From positions 24,170 to 88,169 of the forward strand of contig NZ_FOGL01000019.1 of assembly GCF_900111195.1 (NCBI RefSeq): a stretch of DNA of 64,000 bases. Direction: 5' to 3'. The notes under the pieces are model-generated. The model had not been told where the DNA came from and ran no database searches. It was given only the letters and a program-made list of their open reading frames with translations. Each line of letters begins with the position of its first letter. Position 1 is the first letter of the stretch. This document shows positions 50,311 to 54,542 of this stretch, piece by piece. The DNA comes from Gracilibacillus ureilyticus (GTDB taxonomy: Bacteria; Bacillota; Bacilli; Bacillales; Amphibacillaceae). The position numbers and the translations under genes were made by a program.

Positions 50311-50553
50311 TAAATAACCGTTCTGCTATCATTAAAAAGGCAGAGCAAAAAGGATGCACCCCGAATTTTTATAAATATGGGGTGTTTTTTTGTCTCATCC
50401 TCTAGCTTATAGAATATCGGAAGTTATCCCAGTGATCCCTATAATCCCGTTCGCTTCACTATTCTTTAAAGGAACAAGCCCATTTTTATTCTGTGCGACA
50501 CCGAATGCCTATAAGGCGGAATACATTATATTGTGCCACAGGAGGTGATTCGG

Positions 50554-51345
50554 ATGAGTACTTTATATAAAGATAGCCCTGCCGACCGAAATAATTTAAA
50601 TGATTGGCAGAAGACAGTTCTGCAAAAATTCGAAACCAAAATGATTGATAAAACAAGCCTCTTTCCGTGTATACCTGCTACGATTGGTTTTTCAACGAAT
50701 CAGCTGCGATATGGCTTTATCGGTGATCCCGGAAAGCAATCAACCATCAGCGATTTGGCAAAACTACTAAAAAAGTATACTGAAAAATCTAAGGATTTCG
50801 GTCCTTATACTTCTCTGATTGTATTTTACCAATTACCTGAAGAAGCCAAACGGATATATACAGTTGAGAAATATGAACAATTATTTTGGCAGCAATTAAG
50901 TTTATTAACATACCTTGATGAAAAAAAGTGGCCAGGAAGTATTCCAATTGAGCCACATCTCCCAATATGGGAATATTGCTTTCACGGTGAAAGGTATTTT
51001 ATGTATTGTGCCACACCTGCCCATAAGAATCGTCAAAGCAGGAATTTTGAAACGATGATGCTTGCAATTACCCCCAGATGGGTCTTAGAAAACTTTAATA
51101 AGGCTGACATCCCTGCAGCAAAAATTAAAAAGCGTGTTAGAGAGCGTATTAAAAACTATGATTCCATCGAGATACATCCCGACCTTAATACGTATGGTGA
51201 AGAGGATAACTACGAATGGAAGCAGTATTTCTTACGTGATGATAAGACCAGACTTGCAAAATGTCCCTTTCATCACATTTTTCAAGGGGAAGATATCAAA
51301 CGGCAATTACCGTTTGATAAATTTCAAGAAAGCGACATAAGGTGA
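50554..51345 (+). CDS. YqcI/YcgG family protein
   Basis: A 263-residue protein with the family hallmarks LFPCIPATIGFSTNQLRYGFIGDPG (residues about 33-57), LIVFYQL, WEYCFHGERYFMYCATPAHKNRQSRNF and a cysteine-histidine end (KCPFHHIFQG). YqcI/YcgG proteins are of unknown function; several conserved cysteines and histidines would suit metal or heme-like cofactor binding, but this is a guess. The ATG is preceded by AGGAGGTGAT, the best ribosome site in the area. Monocistronic. Confidence 0.85.
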   Translation: MSTLYKDSPADRNNLNDWQKTVLQKFETKMIDKTSLFPCIPATIGFSTNQLRYGFIGDPGKQSTISDLAKLLKKYTEKSKDFGPYTSLIVFYQLPEEAKRIYTVEKYEQLFWQQLSLLTYLDEKKWPGSIPIEPHLPIWEYCFHGERYFMYCATPAHKNRQSRNFETMMLAITPRWVLENFNKADIPAAKIKKRVRERIKNYDSIEIHPDLNTYGEEDNYEWKQYFLRDDKTRLAKCPFHHIFQGEDIKRQLPFDKFQESDIR

Positions 51346-51455: not shown

Positions 51456-53105
51456 TTAATAAGGATCCGCCTCATGGCTTTTCTTAACAGCATCTTTTGT
51501 TGCTTGATTAGCATCTAAAGTGCCTTCACCAAATTTAGTCTTGCCAGATTCACGACCAGGAACCTGGTTTTCCTTTTTCATTTTCTCAGTTTCCTTCATT
51601 ACCTTTTCAATACCTTCCTTCACTCGGCGACCATAGTCTTCATCAGCCTGAGTAAAGTGATAAATCATAGCATCCTGGATTCGTTTATCACAAATAGCCA
51701 GAGCTTCCGATAAATTTTTGATTAGTTCATCGCGTTCCCAATCTTCGAAACTTCTATAAGTATCCCCTGCTTGACCATAATTATTAGGTCGGTCAATTGG
51801 TGCACTCATAGCCGCTGCATTATATTCAGGTTCATGAGGAGGTCGCTCTTCTTTCCCTGATTCCTCAAAGCCCCCGATCATTGATGGCTCATAATTAATA
51901 TGAGGATTGTCTCCAGATTCTTTCGGATCTCGGGTATCCATTTGACCGCGCTCCTGATTTGTACGAACTGGTACCTTTGGAGCATTTACGGGAAGTTTTA
52001 AATAGTTTGCTCCTACACGGTATCTTTGTGTGTCAGAATATGAAAATGTCCGCCCCTGAAGCATCTTATCATCCGAAAAGTCCATACCATCCACAAGCAC
52101 GCCAGTACCAAACGCAGCTTGTTCAATTTCTGCATGAAAATCAACCGGATTACGATCAAGAACCATACGGCCTACCGGCAGCCAAGGAAACTTATCTTCA
52201 GGCCATAACTTTGTATCATCAAGCGGATCAAAGTCCAGTTCCGGATGATAGCCGTCCTCCATAATTTGTACAAAAAGTTCCCATTCCGGATAATCGCCAT
52301 TCTCTATTGCTTCATAAAGATCCTGTGTTGCATGACCGACATTCTTCGCCTGGATAGCATCCGCTTCTTCTTGCGTCAAATTCCGAATACCCTGTTTCGG
52401 CTCCCAATGATATTTTACCAATACCGCTTCGCCCTTGTCATTTACCCATTTGTAAGTATTTACACCAGAACCTTGCATGTGACGGTATGTCGCTGGAATT
52501 CCCCATGGAGAGAAAACAAATGTTATCATATGTGTTGCTTCCGGTGAGCGGGAAACAAAGTCAAACATTCGCTCAGGATTAGGTACATTTGAAGCTGGAT
52601 CCGCTTTAAAAGCATGAATCATATCAGGGAATTTCATCGCATCCCGGATAAAGAAGATCTTCAAGTTGTTCCCTACTAAATCCCAATTCCCATCTTCCGT
52701 ATACATCTTCACAGCAAAGCCGCGTGGATCCCGTGCTGTTTCAGGTGAATCCTTAGCACCGGCAACTGTCGAAAAACGAACCATTAAAGGTGTTCTTTTA
52801 CCAGCACCAGAGAACACTTTCGCACGTGTATACTTCTCTACAGGTTCATCTCCAACTTTTCCATATGTTTCAAAATAACCAAACGCTCCTGATCCTCTCG
52901 CGTGAACAACACGCTCAGGAACTTCTTCCCGATCAAAATGGGAAATTTTCTCAATGAAATGATAATTCTCCAGTGTGGCTGGTCCACGATTGCCAATTGT
53001 ACGGATGTTTTGGTTATCCTTAACCGGATGACCCTGGCGTGTTGTCAACTTCTCACGTTTTACGTCTTTTTCATTTGAAGCATTCACATCTTTGTTCTCT
53101 GCCAA
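51456..53105 (-). CDS. Monofunctional heme catalase
   Basis: A 549-residue clade-3-like catalase. The catalytic histidine lies in [15 protein letters not shown], the asparagine in [19 protein letters not shown] context, and the proximal heme tyrosine in [15 protein letters not shown]. The length and C-terminal basic/acidic tail ([26 protein letters not shown]) recall KatX, the spore catalase of B. subtilis, rather than the shorter KatA. The start is a TTG 8 bases after AAGGAGG, skipping nine codons of the open frame. A palindrome with a PerR-like box lies about 80 bases upstream, suggesting peroxide induction. It complements the Mn-catalase at 22.7 kb. Confidence 0.94.
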
Positions 53106-53180
53106 AATAAAAACCTCCTTAAAATTAATCAACCTTATCTTTCCTGAAATTTATCATTTCATCCATAACAAGGTTATTTA

Positions 53181-53217
53181 TTGATTATAATTGTTATTAA
53201 TTTAAAATTATAATCAA
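53181..53217. promoter_or_regulatory. Palindrome with PerR-like box upstream of the catalase gene
   Basis: A perfect 12-bp inverted repeat TTGATTATAATT/AATTATAATCAA with a 13-base spacer. Within it, 53185-53199 matches the PerR box TTATAATNATTATAA at 12 of 14 defined positions, with one half-site perfect. It lies 76-112 bases before the catalase TTG. Confidence 0.55.
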
Positions 53218-53337
53218 TACTATAGTTATCATAATTTATATCTTGGTATGATTGCAAATAATTTGAAGCGATAACTTTATCCTTCCTCGAATGGATATCT
53301 GTAACTTATAATCTAAAATTAACTAGGTGTTTAAGAT

Positions 53338-53366
53338 TTGACATTTACTACTTTTTATGAGATTAT
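53338..53366 (+). promoter_or_regulatory. SigA-type promoter for the structured RNA
   Basis: A perfect TTGACA at 53338-53343, a 17-base spacer and GATTAT at 53361-53366. It would start a transcript near 53373 running into the RNA candidate. Confidence 0.65.
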
Positions 53367-53372
53367 AGTAAG

Positions 53373-53656
53373 GTTAACAATAGTAAAGTAATAAATAAGT
53401 GTTTCTGGCATTCTACGTAAAGTTTTTTTCAAGATGCTTATTCACACTGGCGCGACTAAGGGGTCGCAAGGACGTAAGAGCAGGTAGGGCTTACGTTGCT
53501 TAAGTTAGAAAATACCCAGTGGAACATGTACCGCGGTAAAGTGAAATTCTATTAATGAAATTTCCCACCCGAATTATCGGGAGATAAAATAATATTAAAT
53601 CTTATGTGTTACTTTATAAATCAAAGGGGTACTCTTATAGTAAGAGTACCCCTTTT
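53373..53656 (+). ncRNA. Unassigned structured RNA or leader upstream of cvfB
   Basis: About 280 bases bounded by a promoter and a perfect terminator. The core, 53445-53521, folds as a three-way junction: outer stem CACTGG/CCAGTG, a hairpin GCGAC/GTCGC (53452-53467) and a hairpin ACGTAAG/CTTACGT (53472-53496, 11-base loop). Downstream follow the palindrome ACCGCGGT, a stem GAAATT/AATTTC and a hairpin CCCGA/TCGGG (53568-53581). It is richer in GC than its surroundings and contains no open frame with a ribosome site. It could be an independent RNA or a riboswitch-like leader controlling cvfB, which starts 35 bases after the terminator. I could not match it to a known class. Confidence 0.55.
53623..53656 (+). 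terminator. Terminator before cvfB
   Basis: A perfect 15-bp stem (AAAGGGGTACTCTTA and complement) with a 3-base loop and a T-run. Its place between a promoter and the cvfB start is what suggests an RNA gene or an attenuator. Confidence 0.93.
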
Positions 53657-53690
53657 CCAATACATATAAAAGAGGAAGGAAGGTCTTAAC

Positions 53691-54542
53691 ATGATTAACC
53701 AAATAGGCACAATACAAACCTTGGAGGTACTGCGAAAAATTGAAACAGGTTATGTTTTAGATGGTGACATACTCCTCCATCATAATGAAACAGATACAGA
53801 ACTTGAGGCTGAGCAATCTGTTGATGTATTTCTTTATCAGGATAAAAAAGGACAAACTGTTGCAACTACACAATTACCATCCATTCAAATTAATATATAT
53901 GGCTGGGCAGAAGTTGTAGAAGTTTTACCACATTTAGGAGTATTTGTTGATATTGGTACATCAAAAGAAATCCTTTTATCAAAAGATGACCTGCCACTAT
54001 TTGAAAGTGTATGGCCAACGAAAGGCGATAAACTGTATGTTTCTCTAGGCAAAGATCGAAAAGGGCGCCTGCTCGCAATCCCTGCAACAGAAGGCGTTTT
54101 TGAAAGAGAATTATTTGAGCCTGCACATGAAAATCTGTTAAATGAAACAATCAGTGGTCGCATCTACCGCACAGATAGAGAGGGTTCTGCCTGTATCACA
54201 GAAGAAGGGTATCGGGGGTTTATCCACCACACTGAGCGAAAAGAAGAACCTCGCTTAGGAGAACTTGTGGAAGGCCGCGTCATTGAAGTGAAACATGATG
54301 GTACATTAAATGTATCGCTGAGACCCCTGAAACAACACAGCATGGGTGGAGATGCTGATGAGATACTGTTACGTTTAGAAGAAAACAATGGCATTATTCC
54401 ATTCTCCGACAAAAGTGACCCGGAGGATATCCGTGGTACATTTAACATTAGTAAGGCTGCATTTAAACGTGCGTTGGGTAAATTAATGAAAGAAGGAAAG
54501 ATTGAACAGCGTGACGGGAAAACTTATTTAATCTCTAAATAA
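53691..54542 (+). CDS. cvfB: S1-domain RNA-binding protein CvfB (YitL-like)
   Basis: A 283-residue protein: N-terminal S1-like domain (residues about 1-65), a second S1 domain (WAEVVEVLPHLGVFVDIGTSKEILLSKDDL, about 71-135), a third (ISGRIYRTDREGSACITEEGYRGFIHHTER... VEGRVIEVKHDGTLNVSLRP, about 145-210) and a C-terminal winged helix (FNISKAAFKRALGKLMKEGKIEQRDGKTYLI). CvfB binds RNA and affects virulence and growth in staphylococci; YitL is the B. subtilis homologue. It follows a structured RNA ending in a terminator, so its expression may depend on readthrough. Confidence 0.92.
   Translation: MINQIGTIQTLEVLRKIETGYVLDGDILLHHNETDTELEAEQSVDVFLYQDKKGQTVATTQLPSIQINIYGWAEVVEVLPHLGVFVDIGTSKEILLSKDDLPLFESVWPTKGDKLYVSLGKDRKGRLLAIPATEGVFERELFEPAHENLLNETISGRIYRTDREGSACITEEGYRGFIHHTERKEEPRLGELVEGRVIEVKHDGTLNVSLRPLKQHSMGGDADEILLRLEENNGIIPFSDKSDPEDIRGTFNISKAAFKRALGKLMKEGKIEQRDGKTYLISK

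Follow-up and report, generated by a model that had tools for sequence, protein, structure and literature searches.

The window, a stretch of 64,000 nucleotides of Gracilibacillus ureilyticus DNA, is predicted to encode on its plus strand a separate structured noncoding RNA of ~285 nt in its long form (53373..53656, putative start and end), with a promoter and a terminator of its own. Judged from the sequence, this RNA is read from the strand opposite to that of the Rfam model of BsrC, and it represents a corrected and extended form of that known small RNA family rather than an entirely new class. With regard to its function, we tentatively propose, at somewhat less than even confidence, that it serves as a trans-acting platform to which single-strand RNA-binding proteins of the cold-shock and CvfB kind attach.

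The transcription unit upstream of cvfB

The RNA is preceded by a predicted sigma-A promoter (53338..53366, plus strand), in which the -35 hexamer TTGACA (53338-53343) is separated by a 17-nt spacer from the -10 hexamer GATTAT (53361-53366), with a TG upstream (TG-A-GATTAT). This site has 10/12 matches and is the best among 10 promoter-like sites in 52800-54200, where shuffled sequences gave a mean of 5.0 (sd 2.3). At its 3' end, the RNA is closed by a terminator (53623..53656, plus strand) with a stem of 15 uninterrupted pairs (53623-53637/53641-53655, -22.5 kcal/mol). Its T-run consists of four T only (53653-53656), three of them within the stem, and is followed by CCAA; the hairpin was missing from a simple terminator scan, probably because the T-run is so short. 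The promoter and the perfect 15-bp terminator reported in the first-pass annotation were thus both recovered, and its claim of a separate structured RNA with its own signals is well supported by the sequence of the plus strand. The higher GC content that it described applies to 53436-53545 (49% compared to 23% in 53130-53337) but not to the RNA as a whole (36%, with 37% in the window). A coding role for 53373-53660 was rejected: all three plus-strand frames contain stops, and the first frame is open only in the last third, through the terminator.

By eye, tails of the CTTTTCCAATT type, with few T, end the hairpins that follow the RNA in the window (53652-53660) and at loci L013, L039, L052 and L071, and tails such as CTTTTCCAAT also close some hairpins in other families. 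The conservation of hairpin tails such as CTTTTCCAATT looks, by eye, greater than termination would need.

The next gene, cvfB (53691..54542, plus strand), starts 35 nt past the T-run and encodes a protein with S1 domains and a winged helix, matched by the Pfam domains S1_2, CvfB_1st, CvfB_2nd and CvfB_WH. On the other side, an AT-rich region (53130-53337, 23% GC) separates the RNA from a catalase-like gene (51456-53132, minus strand) that is directed away from it and scores 462.6 bits to the HPII model (cut-off 1102). A further frame of 270 aa (50533-51345) has a weak match to the GntA heme-dependent hydroxylase (61.6 bits, cut-off 145).

The conserved core and its long form

The core of the RNA (53436..53505, plus strand) is a three-way junction composed of P1, two hairpins and a GGUAGGG loop. 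Its helices are 53436-53440/53501-53505 plus the pair C53443-G53498, 53453-53457/53462-53466, and 53471-53478/53490-53497. Among the relatives, 96.4% of 1537 cells are paired, and 16 of the 19 pairs have changed on both sides. There are 199 cells with double changes, compared to a shuffled mean of 46.7 and to at most 30 when the partner is slid by 1 to 3 columns. The three-way junction proposed from the window alone is therefore borne out by covariation in relatives. The hairpin loop with the G-rich stretch is among the most conserved parts of the core.

We built a covariance model of the plus-strand core with short flanks, termed R1, from 81 sequences. R1 matched 214 of 398 genomes sampled from the class of the window, which establishes conservation well beyond this strain; of 299 genomes drawn from the phylum it matched 10, all of them within that class. 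In family f47, to which the Paenibacillus records belong (the window's own family is f1), two genera gave matches in 74/75 and 98/100 genomes, and matches with identical contig and position link named Paenibacillus records to the first of these genera. The genome of the window itself has a single copy of the core in the R1 search, and other genomes have up to four. One viral contig, IMGVR_UViG_2684623142_000002 (52,682 bases; L245 6979-7005), gave an exact match to a core pattern, the sole one in the scan, and this may be the edge of a provirus.

Around the junction, the long form appears to add a UGGC motif, a helix P2, an ACCGCGG motif and a closing helix P0, followed by the terminator. The long form comprises 68 of the first 97 loci and was sorted by the ACCGCGG motif (53530..53536, plus strand), outside which the other 29 loci fall, so the constancy of the motif within that set is circular and carries no evidential weight. 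Of all 97 loci, which were not selected by motif, 73 had CCGCGG in the 85 nt that follow the core, and 51 had UGGCNUUC 5' of the core (the UGGC motif of the window is at 53406..53409, plus strand); neither occurred in any of the 97 control windows 300 nt off. By eye, four loci outside the long form by rule (L027, L054, L062 and L091) resemble long forms that carry an insertion or a substitution.

The further stems described in the first reading correspond to P2 and P0. P2 pairs UUCUAC (53411..53416) with GUGGAA (53519..53524), both on the plus strand. In 63 distinct loci its own-partner score was 12.45, higher than in any of 200 between-genome swaps (average 11.58, maximum 12.16), although the helix is absent in a few long-form loci (L055, L096). 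At L027, L062 and L078, inserted sequence separates the junction from the P2 3' strand, in agreement with a modular fold. Support for P0 is modest. Its strands in the window are GUAAAGUAAUA (53383..53393) and UGUUACUUUAU (53607..53617), both on the plus strand, and it recurs as AAGUAAC with GUUACUU. The longest helices average 19.6 compared to 16.5 in shuffled sequences, with only 16 of 65 loci above the shuffled 95% mark, which makes this a weaker test than that of P2.

In the Paenibacillus form (L244, 688,067-687,745 and beyond, minus strand), UCGGCAUUUU precedes the core and GUGGAACAU follows it, which by eye recall UGGCAUUCU and GUGGAACAU of the long form. This likeness of the flanks suggests that P2 may predate the divergence of these families. 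Separately, CACACUGG and CCGCGGUAA may resemble words of 16S rRNA. A candidate CsrA site (AAGGAUG) was dropped on structure alone, since the G and A of the motif are paired in the junction.

Rfam family and strand of the RNA

At curated cut-offs, the sole Rfam match in the whole window is RF01410 (BsrC) at 53422..53509 on the minus strand, with 77.9 bits compared to a cut-off of 38. The same model matched 90 of the 101 genomes searched at genus, family and order level; among 14 control genomes, it matched B. subtilis only. The locus therefore belongs to a described family, though on the other strand, and the label "unassigned" given in the first-pass annotation holds for the plus strand only. 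Its expectation that an Rfam match would name the RNA but end its novelty is half realized, given that Rfam holds the core as BsrC but on the opposite strand. R1 and RF01410 match the same stretch in Bacillus halotolerans and in genome G879, which indicates one locus family. The Rfam model, however, describes 87 nt of the opposite strand as one hairpin, whereas the RNA proposed here has a three-way junction and is longer, with P0, P2 and ACCGCGG.

Three further Rfam matches were obtained in 53130-53690 with E up to 1, all of them below cut-off and overlapping the terminator hairpin, and all were rejected: RsaE (24.6 bits, minus strand, cut-off 79), RefA9 (25.2 bits, cut-off 49) and a plastid 3' UTR model (19.6 bits, cut-off 53.1). 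The models of the raiA motif/ModT (RF03072) and of the T-box (RF00230) were not among these four matches and were dismissed, and no cold-shock leader model matched the same region at E up to 1. The sequence GGUGGAA...ACCGCGG recalls AGGGUGGNACCGCG, which we take to be a T-box sequence, but the UGG of the RNA described here is part of P2 and, in several loci, varies together with its partner. In Alkalihalophilus pseudofirmus OF4, a T-box leader (L145 2938-3200, minus strand; 97.5 bits, cut-off 93) is located at a distance of ~2.3 kb from the RNA. In outline, the RNA resembles the raiA motif/ModT, a conserved structured noncoding RNA of Bacillota described in PMC11706538; according to that source the raiA motif spans Bacillota and Actinomycetota, whereas the core described here is limited to its own class in the phylum sample.

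Several lines of evidence place the RNA on the plus strand. In the core, 178 cells are G-U on the plus strand and 29 are A-C, 24 of the latter at one weak pair; since a G-U pair reads as A-C on the other strand, the excess of G-U points to the plus strand. Of 183 loci, 82 have terminator-like sites 3' of the core on the plus and 11 on the minus strand (8 and 5 in shuffled sequences), and 74 and 11, respectively, have promoters with at least 10/12 matches upstream of the core (17 and 12 in shuffled sequences). Among the 68 long-form loci, the terminator rule was passed by 16 on the plus strand and by 2 on the minus strand. These numbers are low because the rule asks for five T, and the hairpin of the window has four. 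Folding energy was of no use as a strand test because both strands fold well: 53373-53660 folds better than all 200 shuffled sequences on the plus (z = -3.96) as well as on the minus strand (z = -4.39), and the RNAalifold energies of -39.1 for plus and -32.7 for minus are not decisive alone.

A transcript is available from Paenibacillus riograndensis SBR5, for which RNA-seq placed a BsrC small RNA from 688,067 to 687,745 on the minus strand (PMC5670726 Table 4), the novel transcripts having been called from a library enriched for 5' ends (PMC5670726). In genome G879, R1 matches 687,846-687,923 on the minus strand and RF01410 matches there on the plus strand; a TATAAT, whose last base is located 6 nt upstream of position 688,067, is preceded at 17 nt by TTGCAA. 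The SBR5 transcript and G879 thus agree in position, strand and promoter, though G879 is not proven to be SBR5. In Bacillus halotolerans (L137, L200), one copy of the RNA has the same orientation as the two flanking frames, which are presumably ydaG and ydaH, and RF01410 is on the other strand. A small RNA from the BsrC locus has also been reported in B. subtilis besides P. riograndensis (PMC5670726), and tiling arrays of B. subtilis, as given in PMC2784878, joined bsrC with its upstream gene.

The opposite possibility, namely that the minus-strand BsrC is the functional molecule and the plus strand its mirror, draws on the score of RF01410 and on the stable fold of that strand. We regard it as highly improbable, considering that the G-U and A-C counts, the promoters, the terminators and the Paenibacillus transcript all favor the plus strand, as do the co-directional neighbors in B. 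halotolerans and the joining of bsrC to its upstream gene. If the plus-strand assignment is true, the BsrC entry masks a stand-alone structured RNA that is widely conserved in this class, and any probe, fold or target prediction derived from the strand in Rfam would address the wrong molecule.

The name BsrC, its locus, its second copy and its vegetative expression are already published. The second copy is described between cspC and ydeB (PMC8208703), and expression as vegetative (PMC4634765); the "BsrC" of PMC11805744 is the name of a strain, not of the RNA. In the portions of the BsrC literature covered here, which do not extend to the original description (Saito 2009, Gene), we found no statement of a wrong Rfam strand, a three-way junction or the company of csp genes, and bsrC, yitL and cvfB do not occur in the main texts of three surveys of structured RNAs.

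Neighboring genes and the proposed function

The gene context was compared across 153 loci, 97 derived from RF01410 and 56 hand-picked from the class search to spread over families. Genes for cvfB were located by tblastn with the CvfB protein of the window (E up to 1e-6); 3 of the first 97 loci have less than 700 nt of downstream sequence. In f1, 34 of 60 loci have a cvfB gene of the same orientation no more than 700 nt downstream, compared to none of the 93 loci from 46 other families. T-run and cvfB start are separated in those 34 loci by 23 to 377 nt (median 36 nt), typically too little to accommodate a promoter between the terminator and cvfB; in the window, likewise, the terminator lies between RNA and gene and no promoter is found in the 35 nt from T-run to ATG. 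A conserved position before the same gene, as expected of a cvfB riboswitch, was not found outside the family, and the RNA is therefore not simply such a riboswitch.

Outside f1, a csp gene is located within 1 kb in 29 of the 93 loci, distributed over 18 of the 46 families. With 0 to 8 csp genes per genome (101 class genomes), the chance expectation for eight csp genes in a genome of 3-4 Mb is 0.5-0.6% of loci, or about half a locus in 93, and the 29 loci are worth fewer events because related species are not independent. The csp gene is upstream on the same strand in 12 loci, downstream on the same strand in 12, downstream on the opposite strand in four and upstream on the opposite strand in one; L004, counted as downstream on the same strand, has a csp fragment there, and its full csp gene faces the RNA. 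None of the 60 loci of f1 has csp within 1 kb, and neither csp within 1 kb nor downstream cvfB was found in f47 (6 loci) or f46 (10 loci). At L009 and L175, csp lies just upstream of the RNA and cvfB is more than 1.1 kb downstream on the opposite strand.

One interpretation of these contexts is a cis-acting attenuator, in which the RNA would be a leader that responds to a ligand, to cold or to the protein encoded by the gene, and governs termination ahead of cvfB here and of csp elsewhere. The order of promoter, RNA, terminator and closely spaced cvfB in the 34 loci of f1 fits such a device, and in family f65 csp is downstream on the same strand in 7 of 9 loci, some of which, such as L206, have by eye a hairpin and a T-run in between. 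The cspB and cspC 5' UTR leaders with cold shock boxes (PMC8307031) are likewise RNAs beside csp genes for which read-through is a possible output. In contrast to those leaders, however, the RNA described here is found upstream of, downstream of, facing or far from csp. A pure leader should keep its gene, but cvfB never follows on the same strand outside f1, same-strand csp is as frequent upstream as downstream, 64 of the 93 loci lack csp within 1 kb, and the next open frame is opposed in 9 of 15 long-form loci outside f1 by a crude open-frame count. We therefore consider an attenuator unlikely in general; of the two roles suggested for the RNA by the first-pass annotation, a trans-acting RNA fits better, and attenuation of cvfB is possible within f1 alone.

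Since the RNA changes neighborhoods and often keeps its promoter and terminator, it most likely acts in trans. The neighbors that return encode OB-fold RNA-binding proteins, Csp in many families and the S1 protein CvfB in this one, and a U-run (53423..53429, plus strand), a possible site for U-binding proteins, precedes P1; together these favor RNA chaperones as partners of the RNA. Single strands rich in U are the preferred ligands of cold-shock proteins and of Hfq. A run of at least five T before the core was present in 95 of 185 loci compared to 27 of 185 after shuffling, and in 25 of 76 non-redundant windows compared to 8.8. Accommodating proteins of the Csp or CvfB type at the U-run and at the G-rich loop (GGUAGGG), the RNA would store, titrate or position them. 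In this window, cvfB is likely to be transcribed from the promoter of the RNA by read-through of the four-U terminator, given that only ~35 nt separate the terminator from the start codon. RNA and CvfB would then be made in a linked ratio, which CvfB itself might adjust. Terminator read-through in B. subtilis is altered when CspB and CspD are lost (PMC8307031), which makes such a loop possible but does not show that it occurs here. The absence of csp near the f1 loci, and of both csp and downstream cvfB in f47 and f46, speaks against a chaperone partnership, as does the fact that U-runs of six (20 compared to 13 in shuffled sequences) or seven (7 compared to 7) are hardly enriched. In addition, the 53.6-fold enrichment of BsrC with Hfq in B. 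subtilis (PMC3574147) would fit a base-pairing RNA linked to Hfq equally well.

In such a base-pairing role, the G-rich hairpin loop AGAGAGGUAGGG would bind target mRNAs at stretches rich in C and U, assisted by Hfq. The strong conservation of the loop is in agreement with this role. Many base-pairing small RNAs keep a short seed and lose the rest, but here the whole junction is kept with helices on both sides. BsrC does head the table of putative small RNAs recovered together with Hfq from B. subtilis (PMC3574147 Table 1), although the experiment as presented there lost strand information. Considering both sides, we find base pairing quite unlikely and continue to prefer, tentatively, the chaperone platform. 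B. subtilis carries the locus, and the function is therefore testable there. If the platform reading is true, the tie to csp would provide a first handle on the role of the RNA and on the control of the very abundant cold-shock proteins.

Among 52 named loci (L136-L187), 26 have a CarD-like gene, presumably YdeB, that precedes the RNA by ~170-310 nt in the same orientation, and csp is present somewhere in 8 kb in 10 of the 52. At L069, four tandem csp genes are located upstream of the core, the nearest 184 nt away.
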